This document shows, one piece after another, positions 17,346-42,049 of a stretch of DNA of 44,342 nt. The stretch is taken from assembly GCA_027083355.1 (NCBI GenBank), contig JALWOY010000186.1:1-44342 (forward strand), given 5' to 3'. Source of the stretch: Phycisphaerales bacterium. GTDB lineage: Bacteria > Planctomycetota > Phycisphaerae > Phycisphaerales > UBA1924. The number at the start of each line of letters is the position of its first letter. Position 1 is the stretch's first letter. A program made the translations under genes and the position numbers. The notes beneath the pieces were generated by a model that saw nothing but the letters and a program-made list of their open reading frames with translations, ran no database searches and was not told the origin of the DNA.

Positions 17346-17563
17346 GGTGGTGAATTCTGATTGATTCAAAAAGAGCCCGGAGCATTCGCGACGGGCCGTG
17401 CCTGGTGTTGTCATCCTCTCGGCGTTTGGCCCCGCGCTGACGCTTGGGGCTCTTTGGAGCACGCGGATCGACGGGGTGTGTGTGCTGTTGTCATCTCCCC
17501 GTCGTTTGGCTCCGCGCTGACGCTTGGGGCTCTTTGTGGTGCATTCAGATTGAGTCAGAGAAG
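17346..17563. repeat. Composite intergenic repeat block
   Basis: Within the 378-base gap after rplQ, two tandem units of about 80 bases (17379-17456 and 17457-17536) share the conserved core GCTGACGCTTGGGGCTCTTT and a GTTGTCATC box. Each core can fold through GCCCC/GGGGC (first copy) or a one-mismatch version (second copy). The pair is flanked by two imperfect copies of a further element, GTGGTG.ATTC.GATTGA (17348-17365 and 17536-17553). No open frame of interest crosses the block. It resembles non-coding interspersed repeats of planctomycete genomes, but I cannot search for other copies. The rest of the gap (17272-17345, 17564-17593) shows nothing further. Confidence 0.7.
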
Positions 17564-29695: not shown

Positions 29696-32600
29696 ATGCG
29701 TTTTTCCGGGCGACGGGTGATCGTGTGGCTGTGCGCGGTGTGCTGGTTGTTGGTGCCGCGCGCGCACGGGGACGCCGGTCTGCGTGCTTACTGGTCGTTC
29801 GGTGTGACGCACGCGCTCAAACTCGGGCATGTCGACTGGGCTGTCTACGACCTGACCACAACGGTTTCAGACGTCGATTTCCCGTACACCAGCGGCGCCT
29901 TTGTCGCCAACGGGCCGGAGAATTACTTTGCGCTCAGGCTCGTCGGCCGGATCGACATCCCCGCCGACGGCGACTGGACGTTCGGCCTTTCGAGTGACGA
30001 GGCGGCCCGGCTCTGGATCGACGGGCGGCTCGTCGTCAACGACGGCAGCCGACACGGGTTCCACACCCGGGAGGGCACGGTCAATCTCGACGCCGGGGCG
30101 CACGATATCGAGATCCGTTTTCTGGAGCGTTATTACGGCGCGGGGCTTCAACTGCGGTGGTCCGGGCCGGGGGTTGCCGAGGAGATTGTCCCCGCGAGCG
30201 CGTTCACCCTCCGCGACAGCGATCCGGAGTTTCCCGCTGGTGACGGGTTGTGGGTCTACTGGTCACACAACCAGTCCCACGCCGACAACCTCGGCCACAT
30301 CGATTGGACGAATTACGACCGGGCCGAGATCGTTTCCCGCGTGAGCTACCGCATCACGAGCGGCGCGTTCGAGAACGGCGGGCCCGACAATTACTTCGCC
30401 GGCCGGTTCATGGGGCTTGTGGAGGTGCCCGAGAGCGGGACGTGGAGCTTCGAACTGGGGTCGGACGAGGCCGCCGCCTTGATCATCGACGGGCAACCCG
30501 TGATCTCGGATGCCACCCGGCACGGCTTCCACTGGAAGACGGGGTCGGTGCACCTCGACGCGGGTCGGCACAGCATCGAAGTGCGGTACTACGAGCGTTA
30601 TTACGGCGCGGGACTTGTGCTCGCGTGGCGAGGGCCGAGCGATGAATATGTCTCTGTGATCCCGTCGAGCGCCTTCAGCCCCGGCGATGGGATGTCGGCC
30701 GCTGCGTCGGGTGGGCTACGGGCCTACTGGACCTCGAACATGACCTACCCGGATTCGGTCAGCCAGGTGGACTGGACCCAGCACGACACCGTTACGAACG
30801 AGCCGAACATCGCCTATGAAATCACGAGCGGCGCGTTCACCAACGGCGGCCCGACGAACTATTTTTCCGCTCGATTCGTCGGGCTGCTCGATGTTCCCGA
30901 GGGTGGGGCGTGGACCTTCGGCCTGGGTTCCGACGAGTCCGCCCGGCTCTACATCGACGGCGAGCCGGTGATCGTCGACGACACACGCCATGGTTTCCAC
31001 TGGCGTTACACGACGCTCAAACTCGCGGCCGGTCAGCATGATTTCGAGATCAGGTTCTTTGAGCGTTACTACTCGGCCGGTCTCGTGTGCACTTGGCAGG
31101 GGCCGTCGATGCCCTACCAGGAGGTCATCCCGTCCTCGGCGTTCTCGACATACGACGTCGATCCGCCGGTGGAAGGGGCCGGGGGCGAAGGGCTGCGGGC
31201 GTACTGGTACCACGGCATGACCCACGCCGACCGCGCGGGGCATATCGACTGGGCCGACTACGACGACACCTCGCAGGTCGACAACATCTCGTGGCGTGTG
31301 ACCAATCGCCCGTTCGAAGCGGGGCAGCCGGAAAACTATTTCGGCCTGCGGGTCGTCGGGCAGATCGACATCCCCGAGACAGGGACATGGCGATTCGGGC
31401 TGGGCTCGGATGAATCCGCGCAGCTCTTCATCGACGGCCGACCCGTGATCGACGACAGCAGCCGGCACGGGTTCCGCTGGAAACACGCGTCTCTGGATCT
31501 CGACGAGGGCAAGCACGATATCGAGGTGCGATTCTTCGAACGCTATTACAGCGCCGGGCTTGTGCTCACGTGGGATTCACCCAGCGGATACGAGCAGGTT
31601 GTCCCGCCCGCGGCGTTCTCGCACACGGCCGAGGAAGTCCCGTTCGATTCGGGCGGTGGGGGGCTGCGCGCGTACTGGTCGACCGGTGTCCAGCACGCCG
31701 ACAAGGTCGGGCATATCGACTGGGAATCGCACGACCGGGCGACCATCGTCGACAACATCTCGTGGAAACCCACGAGCGGCGCGTTCTATGACGGCGGCCC
31801 ATCGAACTATTTCGCCCTGCGTCTTGTGGGGCAGGTCGACATCCCCGCGACAGGATCGTGGACATTCGGGCTGGGGTCCGACGAGAGCTCCGTGCTGTTC
31901 ATCGACGGCGAACCCGTCGTCGTCGACGATTCCCGGCACAGTGCGCGATGGAAACACGGTTCGGTTACGCTGGACGCCGGGAAGCACGATATCGAAGTCT
32001 GGTTCTATGAGCGGTACTACGGCGCGACGCTATATGTCTCGTGGAGAGGGCCGACCGTCCCGAGCGAGATCATCATCCCAGCCAGCGCGTTCTCGATGCC
32101 GGAATCCGAGGCCCCGTTCGAGCCGGGCGGTGGGATCAGGGCCTACTGGACACGGAACCTCTACCACGCCAACAACGCCGGCCAGATCGACTGGAACGCC
32201 CATGACTCGACCACGATCGAGACGAAGGTGCATTACAAGTTGACGAGTGGGTCGTTCTATTCGGGAGGGCCGAAGAACTATTTCGCTGTGAGATTCGTCG
32301 GGCTCCTCGATATCCCCGAAGACGGCACATGGGCGTTCGAGCTCGGCTCGGACGAGGCCGCCATGCTCTATATCGACGATCGCCCCGTCATCATCGATCA
32401 CACGCGGCACAGTTTCAGATGGAAGCGTTCCACGGTTGCGCTCACGGAGGGCAAGCACAAGGTCGAGGTTCGATACTTCGAGCGGTACTACAGCGCGGGT
32501 TTGTCGCTGGTCTGGCAAGGGCCGTCCATGCCGTTCGCCCGCGTGATCCCCGCTGCGGCTTACAGCACCGACCCGAACCCCACGGTGATCGACAACGGCG

Positions 32601-33106
32601 AGGCCACGCTGCGGGCGGAATGGTTCTGGTACCACCGCTACCTCGACTCGATCGAGACGCTCGATCTCTCAAACCCGCGGGCCACGACGACGGAATCACA
32701 CCCGTACTGGCGGACGACCAGCGGTGCGTTCTTCGACGGGGGTCCGACGAACTTCTTCGTATTGAAACTGACCGGGCGGCTCGTGATCCCGGAGGGCGGC
32801 GTCTGGACATTCAGTCTCGGGAGTGACGAGACCGCGGTCCTCTCCATCGATGGACAGGCCGTCGCCCGGGATACCTCACGCCACAGCTTCAGGTGGAAAA
32901 CGGGCACCGTTTCGCTGACCGAGGGCACGCATGATTTCGAGATCCTCTTCGGCGACCGTTACTATAGCGCCGGCCTCGTCGCGACGTGGAAAGGCCCATC
33001 CGACCCGATCGAATCGGTGATCCCGGCGGCCGCGTTCGAGCAGCCGGGCAGCGGCTCAGATCGACGTGTTGTGCAATGGCGGGAGATCAGCCCGGAGAGC
33101 GATTAG
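29696..33106 (+). CDS. Exported protein of seven PA14 domains
   Basis: The protein is 1136 residues with a signal peptide at 1-26 (VIVWLCAVCWLLVPRAHG). It consists of seven tandem PA14-type domains spaced about 157 residues, starting near residues 28, 184, 340, 499, 656, 813 and 971. Each begins with a variant of GLRAYW....H.....GHIDW. Each then has FGLGSDE.A.L.IDG..V, RH.F.WK..., and ends with a block of the type FERYYSAGL..W.GPS. PA14 domains bind carbohydrates or proteins in many secreted enzymes and adhesins. No enzyme domain is present, so an adhesin or matrix role is likely. The seventh copy is the most diverged. The last 14 residues (RRVVQWREISPESD) match the end of the next protein. 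The start lacks an obvious Shine-Dalgarno. Confidence 0.85.
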   Translation: MRFSGRRVIVWLCAVCWLLVPRAHGDAGLRAYWSFGVTHALKLGHVDWAVYDLTTTVSDVDFPYTSGAFVANGPENYFALRLVGRIDIPADGDWTFGLSSDEAARLWIDGRLVVNDGSRHGFHTREGTVNLDAGAHDIEIRFLERYYGAGLQLRWSGPGVAEEIVPASAFTLRDSDPEFPAGDGLWVYWSHNQSHADNLGHIDWTNYDRAEIVSRVSYRITSGAFENGGPDNYFAGRFMGLVEVPESGTWSFELGSDEAAALIIDGQPVISDATRHGFHWKTGSVHLDAGRHSIEVRYYERYYGAGLVLAWRGPSDEYVSVIPSSAFSPGDGMSAAASGGLRAYWTSNMTYPDSVSQVDWTQHDTVTNEPNIAYEITSGAFTNGGPTNYFSARFVGLLDVPEGGAWTFGLGSDESARLYIDGEPVIVDDTRHGFHWRYTTLKLAAGQHDFEIRFFERYYSAGLVCTWQGPSMPYQEVIPSSAFSTYDVDPPVEGAGGEGLRAYWYHGMTHADRAGHIDWADYDDTSQVDNISWRVTNRPFEAGQPENYFGLRVVGQIDIPETGTWRFGLGSDESAQLFIDGRPVIDDSSRHGFRWKHASLDLDEGKHDIEVRFFERYYSAGLVLTWDSPSGYEQVVPPAAFSHTAEEVPFDSGGGGLRAYWSTGVQHADKVGHIDWESHDRATIVDNISWKPTSGAFYDGGPSNYFALRLVGQVDIPATGSWTFGLGSDESSVLFIDGEPVVVDDSRHSARWKHGSVTLDAGKHDIEVWFYERYYGATLYVSWRGPTVPSEIIIPASAFSMPESEAPFEPGGGIRAYWTRNLYHANNAGQIDWNAHDSTTIETKVHYKLTSGSFYSGGPKNYFAVRFVGLLDIPEDGTWAFELGSDEAAMLYIDDRPVIIDHTRHSFRWKRSTVALTEGKHKVEVRYFERYYSAGLSLVWQGPSMPFARVIPAAAYSTDPNPTVIDNGEATLRAEWFWYHRYLDSIETLDLSNPRATTTESHPYWRTTSGAFFDGGPTNFFVLKLTGRLVIPEGGVWTFSLGSDETAVLSIDGQAVARDTSRHSFRWKTGTVSLTEGTHDFEILFGDRYYSAGLVATWKGPSDPIESVIPAAAFEQPGSGSDRRVVQWREISPESD
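33062..33106 (+). other. C-terminal tag of the PA14 protein
   Basis: The last 15 codons (including stop) encode RRVVQWREISPESD. The next protein ends VRVVNWREISPADR, so RVV-x-WREISP is shared although the rest of the two proteins is unrelated. It may be a sorting or anchoring signal. The DNA of the two tags differs at wobble positions, so they are not a recent copy. Confidence 0.6.
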
Positions 33107-35873: not shown

Positions 35874-37964
35874 TCACAGCCGCACTTTCCGGTTATAGAC
35901 ATACCACTCGAGCATCATCACCAGCAGCGAGCCGAGCAGCAGCCAACGCCAATACCGACGGACCCCCATCGACTCCCGGCTCGACGATGAAACGATCCGT
36001 GAGGCGAGCGCCACCTCGGATTCGGGCGCGATATCCGATTCGAATGCGTCGAGCAGATTGCTCGCGATCGGCCTGACCGCTTCGCCGCCGTCCGACACGT
36101 CCAGAGGCCCTGTGTCGCCGCGCCAACGGAGCGTGTACAGCCCCGCACGTCGGACCGGGCCCCACGTCACGCGTCCGTCCGGCGTCGTGGTCAGGGCGTG
36201 CGAGTCCCCATCGGGCGACACCAAGCGGACCGCGGAGGCCCGGGCGGGCAGCCTCGTCGAAATCACCTCTCCCGGCCGCACCGAGCGGGCGCCGCCCTCC
36301 GCGCCCGACACCGTGTCCAGATAGTCGATCGCGGACGCGAGGAACACGACGAAGCTCACATCGAAGGGCCAGTTGCTTTCCGCCACGTCGAAGAGCACCG
36401 CGATCGCCCGGCTCTCCGGGGTCAGCATCTCGACGATCCCCGGGCCGGCGGTTGTCTCGGCGAGGGGCACGGCGACGCTGTTCTCGCCGATCTCGATCCG
36501 CCGACCCACGCCGATCCGCACGGGTTCGAGTGTCAGATCCCGCAGAACCGGGTGATTCCGTTTCCAGTCCACGAACCGGGTCATCCCCGCCTCGCCGCGG
36601 TCGATCAGCCCTTCCGACCCGCCCGGCACGGCACCCAGAATCAACCAGCGCCCCGGCCCCAACGCCCGCCCGGGCGACGTGTTCGGCGGCAGAATCCCGT
36701 CGAGCACCACGACGTCGTAACGATCAGCACGCCCGTCCTCGAGCGCCGCCTTGAATTCTTCGGGAGTCAGCGTGTCCAGCGTCGCCAGCGGCAGACCCGC
36801 GAGTGCTTCCGCGAGATACAGATTCCCCGATGTCACCACCGCAACCGAGGTTTTCGTCGCGGGGGGGATCACCAGAACACCCTCATCATCCGTCGCGAAC
36901 GCGTCGTCCGTATGTACGCGGACCGTCGCGATCGCGCCCCGGCTCATGTCCATCTCGAACACCAGCCCGCCCCGGCCCGGCTCGGGCCGGAGTTCAGCAC
37001 GGACGCCGTTCTCACCCCCGGATTCCACCACGCCCTCGCGCGTCTCGGCCCCCGGGATCGAAACATCACGCACCGCGCTCGGCACGCCGTCGATCAGCAG
37101 CTCGACCTCGACGCTCCGCGGCTCCGGCGCGGTGTTCTGCACCCCGACGAACACCGTCACATGCTCGGGCTGCTCATACCCACGCTCGGCACGAAGCCCG
37201 ACGATGCCGATATTCGTTGTCTTCGGATCGCCCGCGGTGTGATAGATCACGCTGTCCCGGCTTGTCGGTGAAAACGAATCGAGATCGGCCAACCGACCAT
37301 CGGTGAACAAGTGAAATGTCTGTGGTGGGACGATACCGGCGAACACATCCGCATCGGGTTCCGGGTCGCCCGATGGTTCACCCGCGGGGCGCGGCCTGTG
37401 GGCCCGGGCGAGCTGGAACGCCTCGCGGATCGAGCCGGGGGCGTCGGTCTGTTCGATCGATTCCACGGCCTCTCGGAGCCGAGCTTTATCCGACGTAAAC
37501 CCCTGCACGACCCGGGCGGTGGTGTCGAACGCGATGACCATGGCCTCGTGCGCGTCGGCGCCGAAGATATCGCCCTCGTCGAGCGAGTCGATCAGTTTGA
37601 CGGCGTCTTTCTTCGCCGCGTCGAGGCGGGATAACCCGCCGTTCCCGTCACGGGCCGCCATGCTCGCGGAGCGATCGATCAGCAGGACATGCCGCGTCCC
37701 GGTCGTTTCCGCCGTCTTCTTCTCCGGCTGCGCCACCGCCAGCAGCGCCGCGGCGAGGGCGAGCAATTGCAGCAGCAGCAGGATGTTCTTGCGAAGCCGC
37801 TGGAACGGCGCGTTGGCCTGCAGATCCTGGATCGCCTTCTTCCACAGCAGCGTGGACGAAATCTCCACGCTCCGCCGGCGGAGTTTCAGGAAGTACAGAA
37901 TCACCAACGCCGGCACCGCGATCGCGGCGGCGATGATCGCCAGCATGGGTGTGGCAAACGTCAT
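35874..37964 (-). CDS. BatA-like vWA membrane protein
   Basis: The protein is 696 residues. The N-terminus is a BatA-type region: a membrane segment at about 5-25, a basic cytoplasmic loop with FLKLRRR, then a second segment at about 59-78 (NILLLLQLLALAAALLAVA). A von Willebrand A domain follows with the metal site DRSAS at residues 97-101. A long periplasmic region and a C-terminal membrane segment (RWLLLGSLLVMMLEWYVYN) close it. The MIDAS Asp-x-Ser-x-Ser is intact. In MoxR systems such proteins work with a MoxR ATPase and a DUF58 protein, both encoded upstream here. The start at 37964 is the best fit for the family, but an ATG at 37979 cannot be excluded. It ends 10 bases from the convergent beta-helix gene. 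Confidence 0.85.
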   Translation of the reverse strand: MTFATPMLAIIAAAIAVPALVILYFLKLRRRSVEISSTLLWKKAIQDLQANAPFQRLRKNILLLLQLLALAAALLAVAQPEKKTAETTGTRHVLLIDRSASMAARDGNGGLSRLDAAKKDAVKLIDSLDEGDIFGADAHEAMVIAFDTTARVVQGFTSDKARLREAVESIEQTDAPGSIREAFQLARAHRPRPAGEPSGDPEPDADVFAGIVPPQTFHLFTDGRLADLDSFSPTSRDSVIYHTAGDPKTTNIGIVGLRAERGYEQPEHVTVFVGVQNTAPEPRSVEVELLIDGVPSAVRDVSIPGAETREGVVESGGENGVRAELRPEPGRGGLVFEMDMSRGAIATVRVHTDDAFATDDEGVLVIPPATKTSVAVVTSGNLYLAEALAGLPLATLDTLTPEEFKAALEDGRADRYDVVVLDGILPPNTSPGRALGPGRWLILGAVPGGSEGLIDRGEAGMTRFVDWKRNHPVLRDLTLEPVRIGVGRRIEIGENSVAVPLAETTAGPGIVEMLTPESRAIAVLFDVAESNWPFDVSFVVFLASAIDYLDTVSGAEGGARSVRPGEVISTRLPARASAVRLVSPDGDSHALTTTPDGRVTWGPVRRAGLYTLRWRGDTGPLDVSDGGEAVRPIASNLLDAFESDIAPESEVALASRIVSSSSRESMGVRRYWRWLLLGSLLVMMLEWYVYNRKVRL

Positions 37965-38060
37965 GCGGCCCCCCGGCATGCCACACCGCCACAAAGCCAC
38001 GAACCCGCGGAGTCACCGATCCGAGCCGCGGGGGTGTCCAACCGTCCTCCGGCGGGCCGT

Positions 38061-38097: not shown

Positions 38098-39114
38098 TCA
38101 CCGTACCAACCCCCTTCGTCTGAGGTAGTCCAGCAACAACACATCCACCGGCGTGTCCGTTTGCACGGTCAGAGCTGTGATCTCTCGACGCGCACAGAAA
38201 TTCCGCAGCCCGTCGCAGTACGCCGCCAGGTTCTTCCTGTATTTCTTCAGCAGCGGCGCCGAAATCGTCACCTCCGCCCGGTCCCCGTCCTCCACATCGA
38301 CCAGCCGCAGGTCCCCCCCGATGTCCGGCTCGACCTCCTGCGGGCTCAGGCACTGCACCGCGAACAGGTCATACCCCCGCCCCACCAGCAGCCGCAGCCC
38401 GTCCTCGTAACCCTCCTTCATGAAAAAGTCGCTCACGACCACCATCACACCCCGCCCGCGCCTCGCCAGCGCGAGCCGCCGGGCCTGATCGCCGAAATCG
38501 GTCGCCCCAGCCGGCCTCAGCGAGCACAGGAACCGGGCGAGATCCTGCGTGCGTCTTCTTCCCCGCAAGTCTCTGATCGTGTGCAGCGAAGAATCCGACA
38601 CTTCGCGTCGCTCAGTGTCGGCGTCATTATCCTTCGACGCCGACGCTAAGCCCGCTTGGGCGGGCGAAGCGTCGGATCGCCCCGTCTCGACCATCCCGCC
38701 CACCGCCGTCACCGCCACGCGGTTCAGGTTCACCAGCCCGACATACCCCAGCGCCATCGCGAACCGCTGCGCATACAAAAACTTGCTCGGCTCCCCGCAA
38801 TCCATGCTCTCGCTCGCATCGATCACGATGTGCAGCGACAGATCTTCCTCTTCGAGAAACAGCTTCAGGAACAGCCGATCGAGCCGCCCGAAGATGTTCC
38901 AGTCGATGTGCCGCAGGTCGTCGCCCGACACATAGGGCCGGTGGTCGGCGAACTCGACGGATTCGCCCCGTTTCTTGCTCCGCCGCTCGCCCTTGAGTTT
39001 GCCCGCGAAGATCTTTCGGCTCGTCAGATCCAGCCGGCTGATCTTGGCGATCAGCGTGCTGTCGAGCAGCTCGTCCATCGACGCGGGCCGGGATGGGTCG
39101 GTGCTGCGCAGCAT
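38098..39114 (-). CDS. DUF58 protein with in-frame palindromic insertion
   Basis: The protein is 338 residues. The DUF58 signature is clear: HRPYVSGDDLRHIDWNIFGR at about residues 58-77, then a vWA-like fold starting VIDASES at 98-104 and continuing with GGMVETGR. Residues about 147-179 interrupt the domain between GGMVETGR and RDLRGRRR and are rich in Ser, Asp and Ala. They correspond to the palindromic element at 38595-38675. The ATG at 39114 overlaps the stop of the upstream transglutaminase-like gene as TGATG, so translation is probably coupled. That overlap is the reason for this start, as no Shine-Dalgarno is visible. DUF58 proteins belong to MoxR systems and probably act in envelope assembly. 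Confidence 0.9.
   Translation of the reverse strand: MLRSTDPSRPASMDELLDSTLIAKISRLDLTSRKIFAGKLKGERRSKKRGESVEFADHRPYVSGDDLRHIDWNIFGRLDRLFLKLFLEEEDLSLHIVIDASESMDCGEPSKFLYAQRFAMALGYVGLVNLNRVAVTAVGGMVETGRSDASPAQAGLASASKDNDADTERREVSDSSLHTIRDLRGRRRTQDLARFLCSLRPAGATDFGDQARRLALARRGRGVMVVVSDFFMKEGYEDGLRLLVGRGYDLFAVQCLSPQEVEPDIGGDLRLVDVEDGDRAEVTISAPLLKKYRKNLAAYCDGLRNFCARREITALTVQTDTPVDVLLLDYLRRRGLVR
38595..38675. repeat. Palindromic repeat element inside the DUF58 gene
   Basis: 81 bases with terminal inverted repeats CCGACACTTCG (38595-38605) and CGAAGCGTCGG (38665-38675), matching at ten of eleven positions. Inside are three overlapping perfect or near-perfect stems: CCGACACT/AGTGTCGG (38595-38621), GTCGGCGTC/GACGCCGAC (38617-38644), and GACGCTAAGCCCGC against GCGGGCGAAGCGTC (38642-38673, 12 of 14). 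The length is exactly 27 codons and keeps the frame open. The encoded residues interrupt the DUF58 domain. This is the signature of a palindromic mobile repeat inserted in frame. Confidence 0.75.
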
Positions 39115-40493
39115 CAGGGGACCGATTCGGAGCACGACGCCGCGGGTGTCTCTGTCGCAGCGGCTGTCGAGGGTTCGACGTGTTCGGGGGTGATCTCGTA
39201 GAACAGCACGAGGGCGTTCTCGTTGCGCTCATCACCGGAATGCATGAGCACGATCGTCGTTTCGGTCTCGCGGGGGATGAACGCCGCTCGGAGATCGATC
39301 ACCGGCGACTTCCCGGGCGCATCCTCGACCCGATTGATCCGGACCGTGGCAAGCCGACCGCCGTCGGCCACGACCGGCCACAGCCTGATGTCGGGCGAAC
39401 GAAGCACCGCGCGGAGGCTCAGCACCATCCGCTCGCCCGGCGTCAACCCAGTGATATGCACCACTGGAACGATGTCGTAGCTTTGCTCGCTGACACCGAC
39501 GAGATGCTGCCATGTCAACCGCCGCCCGTCCCGGCGAAGCACCGTGGGACGCACGGACCCGTCGGGGTTCAGAAGCGCCGTCTCGAGCCGGGCGGTCTCC
39601 GGCCATGAAAGCCGGATCGACGACGGAATGGGGTTCTCCGGCGAGCCGCTGCCCCACGCGGTCGAAAGCTCAAGCATCTGTTGCAGCGGGAAATTCGGAA
39701 GGCTGAAGTCGGGCACGCGCTCGATCAATTCATCAATCGGGCCCTCGAAGCAGATCTCACGCGGTGGACAATGCACCCGATCCATGACCGGGGCCCACGG
39801 CCCGATCCGGCTCACAATCGACGGATCGGCGAACACCTCGTTCTGCGAAAGAATCCGCCCGTTCCGCTCACCGTTCTCCGTGAAGAACAGGCCCGCCGAC
39901 GGGTCGAACCACGCCCAGCCGCCTTGATCGTCGAGCCAGACTTCGAGCGTGGTGTGCGAGGCCTGCTGCGGCACGCTCGCCATCCCCGCGTACCGCAGCG
40001 GGATGTCGTCGTCGAAGGTCCGGATGATCCTCCCCAGCAGCATCGCACGCCTGCCGCACGAACCGTTTCGCAAACCCGTTTCCAGAAAATCCTTCCAGTT
40101 CTTCGTCTGTTCGATCGGGCCGTTCTCCATCCGAGAGACGATCAGATTCGCGGCGATGATCCGATCTCGAAGCGGCGCGTCGTCCGGCACCAGCGCATCG
40201 ACCGCTTCGAGCACATCGTTGAACGCGTCCTTGCCCCATTTGGAAGGAGATGGCAGGTCCCGGTTCCGGATCGTCCCCACCGGCCGCGGATAGTCCAGAT
40301 CCGGTTCAGACCACAAGCCGGCGAGCACGAATCGCCCGCCGGAACGGCGCGTCAGCTCGGCGATACCGTGGGGAGAGAAAAAGGCATACCCGCCGAACAG
40401 CCCCGCGGCAAAGATCAGACAGGACGCGGTGATGATCCTGAAGGGCAGATGACACAGCGGGCAGTGCTTTGAACGACAACCAGAGTTCAACAT
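39114..40493 (-). CDS. Transglutaminase-like membrane protein
   Basis: The protein is 459 residues. A Cys/His-rich start (CRSKHCPLCHLP) leads into one membrane segment at about residues 18-40, and the rest should be outside. The transglutaminase-like core has the expected triad in order: Cys146 in RNGSCGRRA, His180 in SHTTLEVW, and Asp197 in AWFDPSAG. This fold covers peptidases, transglutaminases and inactive binding proteins, and the intact triad suggests activity. The start at 40493 is chosen because GGAG lies 8 bases upstream; an ATG at 40541 would add 16 residues. The gene sits between the lipoprotein and DUF58 genes of the MoxR operon, where transglutaminase-like proteins are common partners. 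A CTATAG sequence in the 162-base spacer upstream might be an internal -10 element. Confidence 0.82.
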   Translation of the reverse strand: MLNSGCRSKHCPLCHLPFRIITASCLIFAAGLFGGYAFFSPHGIAELTRRSGGRFVLAGLWSEPDLDYPRPVGTIRNRDLPSPSKWGKDAFNDVLEAVDALVPDDAPLRDRIIAANLIVSRMENGPIEQTKNWKDFLETGLRNGSCGRRAMLLGRIIRTFDDDIPLRYAGMASVPQQASHTTLEVWLDDQGGWAWFDPSAGLFFTENGERNGRILSQNEVFADPSIVSRIGPWAPVMDRVHCPPREICFEGPIDELIERVPDFSLPNFPLQQMLELSTAWGSGSPENPIPSSIRLSWPETARLETALLNPDGSVRPTVLRRDGRRLTWQHLVGVSEQSYDIVPVVHITGLTPGERMVLSLRAVLRSPDIRLWPVVADGGRLATVRINRVEDAPGKSPVIDLRAAFIPRETETTIVLMHSGDERNENALVLFYEITPEHVEPSTAAATETPAASCSESVP

Positions 40494-40885: not shown

Positions 40886-41938
40886 TCACACCCCCGCCAT
40901 CCCCACGGGCTGCGTCGGCACCCGCTGCAAAATATCACCCACCAACGCGTCCGGGTCCACCCGGTCCGCCTCGGCCTCGAAGTTCAACAGGACCCGGTGA
41001 CGCAACGCCGGCAACGCCGCCTCCTCGATGTCCTTGTACGAAACGTTATAGCGCCCGTCCGTCAGCGCTCGCACCTTCCCCGCCAGCACCAGCGCCTGCG
41101 CCGCACGCGGGCTCGCCCCGCATCGGATATACCGGTTCGTCGGCCCGTCCGCCCCGCCCGCGGCGAAGTCCCCGCCGGGGTGCGTCGCCAGGACCAGCCT
41201 CGCGGCATATTGCTTCACGTGCGGCGCGATCACCACCTCGCGCACCAACTGCTGCGCCTCCAAAATCCCCGGCCCGTCCAGCACCGCCTCCGCCTCGGGG
41301 GTCTCCGCTCCGGTCGTCCGGTCGAGCACGACCATGAGATCATCGAGCCGCGAATACCCCACGTTCACCTTGAACATGAACCGGTCCATCTGCGCCTCAG
41401 GGAGCGGATACGTCCCCTCCTGCTCGATCGGGTTCTGCGTCGCCAGCACCAGGAACGGCGACGCGAGCACGTGCGTCTCGCCCCCGACCGTCACGCTCCG
41501 CTCCTGCATCGCCTCAAGCAAAGCGCTCTGCGTCTTGGGCGTCGCACGGTTGATCTCGTCCGCCAGCACCACCTGCGCAAAGATCGGCCCCGGCTGAAAA
41601 ACAAACGACCGCCGACCCGTCTCCGCGTCCTCGCTCACGATGTTCGTCCCGATCACGTCCGCCGGCATCAGGTCCGGCGTGAACTGGATCCGGCTGAACG
41701 GCAGGCTGAGCGCCCGCGCCAGCGTGCGCACAAGCAGCGTCTTGCCCAGCCCCGGCACGCCCTCGAGCAGCACGTTCCCGCCCGCGAACAGGCACGTCAG
41801 CACCGCGTCGACCACCTCATCCTGGCCAACCATCACCTTGCCGATCTCCGCCTTGAGCCTCGTGAAAGTCTCGCGGAAAGCCTCGGCCCGGGCCTGCACC
41901 TCCTGCGGCGTCTGTTCATGCTCGGGGTTCATCGCCAT
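40886..41938 (-). CDS. MoxR-family AAA+ ATPase
   Basis: The protein is 350 residues. Walker A GVPGLGKT is at 60-67, Walker B VVLADE at 123-128, sensor 1 ends in LATQN (Asn169), and a DRF sequence at 185-187 fits the family. MoxR ATPases act as chaperones for vWA-containing partners and often help envelope or metal-enzyme assembly. It sits here between two vWA proteins and a DUF58 protein, the classical arrangement. The start at 41938 is chosen for the GGAG 7 bases upstream. The upstream in-frame residues from 42019 are not MoxR-like. Confidence 0.93.
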   Translation of the reverse strand: MAMNPEHEQTPQEVQARAEAFRETFTRLKAEIGKVMVGQDEVVDAVLTCLFAGGNVLLEGVPGLGKTLLVRTLARALSLPFSRIQFTPDLMPADVIGTNIVSEDAETGRRSFVFQPGPIFAQVVLADEINRATPKTQSALLEAMQERSVTVGGETHVLASPFLVLATQNPIEQEGTYPLPEAQMDRFMFKVNVGYSRLDDLMVVLDRTTGAETPEAEAVLDGPGILEAQQLVREVVIAPHVKQYAARLVLATHPGGDFAAGGADGPTNRYIRCGASPRAAQALVLAGKVRALTDGRYNVSYKDIEEAALPALRHRVLLNFEAEADRVDPDALVGDILQRVPTQPVGMAGV

Positions 41939-42049
41939 CGTCGTCTCCTGTCGATTCAATCTTCTCATTGCCCCAACGAGCCGTGATTGTCTGGGAGCGG
42001 TCCCGTCGTCAGAAACCACGCCCTCACGGTCGCGGTTCGTTCCATACTG

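Follow-up and report, generated by a model that had tools for sequence, protein, structure and literature searches.

The window analysed here, the whole 44,342-nt stretch from a Phycisphaerales bacterium, carries a strong palindrome within the open reading frame of a DUF58 gene, which raises the question of what this element is and how it came to lie in frame in a protein-coding sequence. The initial annotation had described a single 81-base element at 38595-38675, exactly 27 codons long, with 11-base terminal inverted repeats and three overlapping internal stems. The palindrome is real and belongs to a dispersed repeat; however, its limits are better set at 38593-38677 (85 bp), and what had looked like one 81-bp element is a REPIN/BIME-type composite of two REP units. 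The features of the locus are as follows:

38098..39135, minus strand: DUF58 (vWA-like) host gene, 345 aa (Pfam PF01882, E value 1.3e-26; structural model; vWA folds in the PDB)
38593..38677: whole composite element, 85 bp, two inverted REP units and a spacer (pattern matches, fold, terminal inverted repeat)
38593..38625, minus strand: REP unit 1, 33 bp, GACGCCGACACTGAGCGACGCGAAGTGTCGGAT (pattern match)
38626..38635: spacer between the units, 10 bp, with the GACG ends facing inward
38636..38677, plus strand: REP unit 2, 42 bp, GACGCCGACGCTAAGCCCGCTTGGGCGGGCGAAGCGTCGGAT, with an internal GCCCGCTTGGGCGGGC hairpin (pattern match)
38610..38651: central stem pairing units 1 and 2 (arms 38610-38625 and 38636-38651, 16 nt, 88 % complementary)
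40886..42019, minus strand: upstream MoxR-type AAA+ ATPase ORF, named from sequence (genomic context)
35874..38000, minus strand: downstream BatA-like membrane/vWA ORF, named from sequence (genomic context)

A length of 81 bp or 27 codons results from trimming both ends; measured between the natural ends of its units, the element spans 85 bp. Inverted ends are present as annotated, although the better pair (ATCCGACACTTCGC and GCGAAGCGTCGGAT) matches over 13 of 14 bases, and the three overlapping stems correspond to the two unit hairpins plus the stem formed between the units. The folding energy of the element on the coding strand is -65.6 kcal/mol (z = -6.55 relative to 200 dinucleotide-shuffled sequences), a strength reached by 0 of 1196 sampled minus-strand and 2 of 1196 sampled plus-strand stretches of the window; the shuffles, together with the dispersed copies described below, rule out a chance palindrome in the DUF58 gene. 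An Rfam scan returned no family at gathering score. The only match was a weak CRISPR repeat model (E value 0.019, below the model's cut-off), a score best explained by the palindrome itself, and no similar DNA was found in plasmid records.

As the initial annotation had supposed, the element belongs to a repeat family, dispersed over many contigs rather than confined to a single copy. Pattern searches of the 3.4-Mb assembly returned 74 strict and 117 relaxed copies of a GACG-tagged unit and none for a reversed control pattern; the strict pattern leaves stem and loop positions free, and the genome-wide counts are those of pattern searches, while contexts come from examined stretches. The unit has the consensus GACG-CCGANNCT-GA-loop-GA-AGNNTCGG-AT, that is, conserved ends (GACG...GGAT) around a hairpin in which an 8-bp stem, some of whose pairs co-vary, leads to a tandem G.A/G.A mismatch and then to a loop that is variable. 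The two free stem pairs co-vary strongly (98.7 % of cells paired in 157 units, compared with 48 % on average and 59 % at most after shuffling), and in 170/196 units recovered with a looser seed the stem is followed by the tandem GA/GA mismatch. The main units are 32 bp (GACGCCGACGCTGAGCCTGCGAAGCGTCGGAT), 42, 27 and 40 bp long. Most close pairs in the genome (12/15) have their GACG ends outside; these outward pairs are mostly 42+32-bp heterodimers with 21–30-bp spacers, the layout of REPINs and BIMEs. Inward pairs, to which that of DUF58 belongs, are rarer; the 10-bp inward arrangement seen in DUF58 recurs elsewhere in the same genome (G000:C30:6473-6559). Strict copies were detected in 15 of 150 genomes of the taxonomic family, three of which, besides the host genome, contain 149, 131 and 55; the two congeners returned none. 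In a class-level sample of 150 genomes the host genome was the sole match, with none outside the taxonomic family.

At least two more palindromic repeat families are abundant in this genome. Among the stretches examined we counted at least 61 copies of a GTGGGACGGGC..GCCCGTC palindromic family and at least 62 of a CCCTCTCCCC..GGGGAGAGGG family (both at L002, L007 and other loci). Within the window, a GGCCCCGCGCTGACGCTTGGGGCTC palindrome of a further REP-like family occurs twice in tandem at positions 17370-17536, the copies being 80 bp apart, and positions 29777-32989 hold seven tandem repeats of about 470 bp each that are 60–71 % alike.

To what extent does the GACG family enter genes? Codon usage was tested to either side of about 99 occurrences, and most copies proved to lie between genes, a long spanning ORF being counted as a gene only if codon usage agreed on both sides of the copy. 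About three loci of the host genome are convincingly intragenic, namely DUF58, KdsA and RarA. The proposal of a repeat family able to enter proteins in frame is thus borne out at these three genes, but its depiction as a gene invader needs narrowing, as most members of the family lie between genes. In KdsA (nearest structure in the PDB 3fs2; NCBIfam NF003543), two congeners are without exactly 11 codons (ELDCSKF-SEAGSPPVCFD compared with ELDCSKFRPDADIEQSEVSDLFSPPVCFD). The net difference of 33 bp is the unit's own length and the number of flanking codons is unchanged, so that the site shows no net target duplication. RarA (PDB 3pvs; NCBIfam) carries two paired 33-bp units, which contribute VDAESEQSGGSDRSDASRRSASAS to a loop 20 residues longer than that of the aligned congener, a net gain of 60 bp that differs from the 68-bp pair. 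A survey of 62 clusters in other genomes of the taxonomic family revealed in-frame copies with a two-sided coding signal in DnaE2 (error-prone DNA polymerase), RarA, a YpdA-like reductase, an Mrp/ApbC-like ATPase and an amidohydrolase-like ORF, the last named from sequence only. The RarA copies of the other genome sit in the same loop as those of the host genome, across two genera. One candidate (L328 in G125) looked doubtful and was left out of the count. Separately, the DnaE2-like gene at L290 (G008:C84) carries, besides its REP unit, a second low-complexity in-frame insert, KGGDEETERRRDEETKWGREMEG.

The intragenic units of the host genome are biased in length. Units of 33 bp account for 4/5 intragenic copies and 0/91 others (Fisher, 1.5e-6), the dominant 32-bp form is never intragenic in this genome, and lengths divisible by three are found in 5/5 intragenic units and 29/91 others (p = 0.005); both biases were noticed post hoc. 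Units of 34 bp do occur in genes of other genomes, so what is filtered is net length and not just the unit. A stop is present in one of the unit's six reading frames, and intragenic units are read in frames yielding Asp/Ala/Ser-rich peptides.

Taken together, we consider it highly probable that the DUF58 element is a REPIN-like pair from a GACG-tagged, non-autonomous REP family so far seen in a single Phycisphaerales-type taxonomic family. Its units probably spread as single-stranded hairpins on which an enzyme encoded at another locus acts; most copies persist between genes, and intragenic copies would survive as tolerated in-frame loops. A copy landing in a gene would last only in a surface loop that tolerates it, and only if its net length keeps the frame and the frame read is hydrophilic and free of stops; it would then stay as a short disordered Ser/Asp/Ala-rich insert. 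Such inserts are presumably neutral for protein function, with purifying selection the probable source of the length bias.

The mobilising enzyme is most plausibly a Y1 HUH (TnpA/RAYT-type) transposase. The hairpin, the conserved end, the inverted pairs and the KdsA gain without net target duplication are consistent with single-strand hairpin transposition by Y1 HUH enzymes, as proposed for REPs. Class 3 TnpA-Y1 proteins with associated hairpins occur mainly in Planctomycetes (PMC6006769), and a search of 13 genomes for Y1_Tnp genes returned four matches in the host genome, which has three class-3-like Y1 proteins whose NHVH, WT and YVxxxQ motifs resemble those of class 3. The inspected Y1_Tnp genes (the four matches in the host genome and 30 loci elsewhere) had no GACG unit closer than about 1.5 kb, and none of these genes was retained as a dedicated transposase for the family; because no inspected Y1 gene adjoins GACG units, we infer the enzyme from the form of the units. 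The class-3-like Y1 genes of the host genome are instead flanked by palindromes other than GACG units. One such gene, at L010 (G000:C24), has flanking GCCCTCGCTTCCGCTCGGGC palindromes and is likely a REPtron of another family.

A different origin would be that recombination, gene conversion or hairpin replication slippage placed the repeats, the units being fossil hairpins copied by DNA repair with no transposase involved. We regard this as unlikely. No transposase gene flanked by the GACG family among those inspected and the varying loop length of the units would accord with such placement, but the clean gain of exactly one unit length in KdsA argues against it, as does dispersal over many contigs with conserved ends, which is expected of a defined mobile unit.

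Where the DUF58 copy resides is informative in its own right. The element lies in frame in the minus-strand 345-aa ORF, as annotated, although it encodes residues 153-181 (RSDASPAQAGLASASKDNDADTERREVSD) and not the span of about 147-179 first given. The initial annotation had it interrupting a conserved domain, but it occupies a length-variable loop between two beta-strands, and no conserved segment of the domain is broken. In an AlphaFold model built with 47 sequences, pLDDT falls below 50 over exactly the element-encoded residues, which sit between strands 139-145 and 184-190 of a predicted fold matching vWA domains such as BatB (PDB). The insert is therefore a predicted disordered segment in a hypervariable loop, the pLDDT values being supportive only, since AlphaFold disorder is expected for any sequence without aligned relatives. 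Among many Phycisphaerales MAGs, this loop ranges from 8 to 56 residues and is mostly 14–31; one relative (L135) with a partly masked loop was counted as 64 residues. Taking out exactly these 85 bp would leave the gene out of frame, and the event is not polarisable base by base because congeners carry other sequence in the loop.

Inspection of those relatives revealed other repeats at the same position. The DUF58 loop of G038 contains two other palindromes (about 40 and about nine copies among the matches listed in that genome), that of G112 another (about eight copies) and that of G013 another with a second copy at 96 %. In the congener G094, the loop contains a palindrome with 97 % copies scattered in the host genome, while in the congener G055 the loop consists of GAGCCCCGAGCGTCAGCGAGGGG, which resembles a repeat of the host genome and has no further copy among the matches listed in G055. 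In all, the DUF58 loop has been struck by at least three, and probably five, families other than GACG. The loops of L057, L058 and L107 look similar to the repeat-bearing ones, only some of them having been checked. L058 comes from a public record titled 'Cyanobacteria bacterium', and its DUF58 protein is of Phycisphaerales type, so the title looks mislabelled.

These observations raise a wider possibility, to which we give roughly even chances: the DUF58 and RarA loops of Phycisphaerales may be repeated landing sites into which unrelated palindromic families insert in frame independently across lineages, making mobile hairpins a steady source of new disordered loops in otherwise conserved proteins of bacteria. 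Recurrence of this kind might also be read as a sign that intragenic copies are kept for a benefit to the host, as RNA hairpins pacing translation or as protein linkers, and are not tolerated neutral insertions. The shared RarA loop with GACG units in two genera, the repeats of several families in the DUF58 loop of different lineages and the recurrence of DNA repair genes as hosts, both in our analysis and in published work (PMC3733652), are what such a benefit would lead one to see. Flexible loops explain the same recurrence with no function invoked, however; the inserted peptides differ between families, and the insert is absent from the closest relatives in KdsA and from the aligned congener in RarA, all of which makes a host function very unlikely. 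That the segment is simply an ancestral Ser/Asp/Ala-rich DUF58 loop, with a palindrome arising by chance or by RNA-level selection in a GC-rich gene, has next to no probability: the loop is variable in length in all DUF58 relatives and reaches at least 40 residues in several, but most relatives have loops of 14–31 residues, the same units are present in unrelated proteins, and the element DNA comes from a repeat family of which more than 70 strict copies are dispersed in the genome, which refutes this as a full explanation.

We return to the reading of the element as a mobile REPIN-like pair and to what it adds. REPs inside genes have been published for many species, encoding 20–30 residues (PMC3733652), and the intragenic phenomenon is therefore already known; our search of the openly licensed literature found intragenic REPs and no description of the GACG family. 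New here are this repeat family, with its GACG end, GA mismatch and occurrence in one family of planctomycetes, as well as the filter on length, the clean event in KdsA and the DUF58 loop entered by many families. In-frame gene invasion by REP-type repeats is thereby extended to a new Phycisphaerales family, with unusually clear signs of selection (no unit lengths but frame-compatible ones in the genes of the host genome, one clean net gain of 33 bp and a multi-family loop), and the creation of protein loops by short mobile hairpins becomes testable.

CGTC is the 5′ end in known alpha-proteobacterial repeats. The CGTC super-family has a CGTC end, a stem starting with A-T pairs and a tail near CCA, and is without a dedicated transposase (PMC3733652); we rejected it for our units, as these have GACG at the 5′ end (CGTC only on the opposite side), a stem starting C-G, C-G and an AT tail. 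The GTAG super-family was likewise set aside, the unpaired end being GACG and not GTAG. By general REP/REPIN standards, the family is a high-copy palindrome with an unpaired end, inverted dimers and a mostly extragenic location. With REP/REPIN/BIME systems (PMC3733652; REPINs, PMC3116915) it shares 20–45-bp palindromes with a conserved unpaired end and co-varying stems, about a hundred copies, inverted dimers that are mostly heterodimers 20–30 bp apart, and mostly intergenic copies with some in frame in genes, including DNA-repair hosts. In contrast to them, it has a tandem G.A mismatch inside the stem and no associated transposase gene among those inspected, and among the genomes sampled it was seen in just one planctomycete taxonomic family. 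Parallels in host choice extend to published systems, in which DNA repair genes including DnaE2 carry intragenic REPs and different REPs occupy about the same recB site in two Xanthomonas species (PMC3733652).

The element is also reminiscent of the Rickettsia palindromic elements (RPEs), a likeness that the initial annotation had pointed out and that stands as one of insertion behaviour. Both are palindromic repeats lying in frame in conserved genes (here DUF58, KdsA, RarA, DnaE2 and others), where they lengthen the protein by tens of residues at sites that tolerate it. Two of the Rickettsia families, RPE-4 and RPE-6, are classed as CGTC REPs (PMC3733652), and by description their CGTC type differs from the GACG ends found here, in a planctomycete host. 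In Phycisphaerales, then, the GACG repeats appear to make up a new REP/REPIN family, RPE-like in the way it enters genes.
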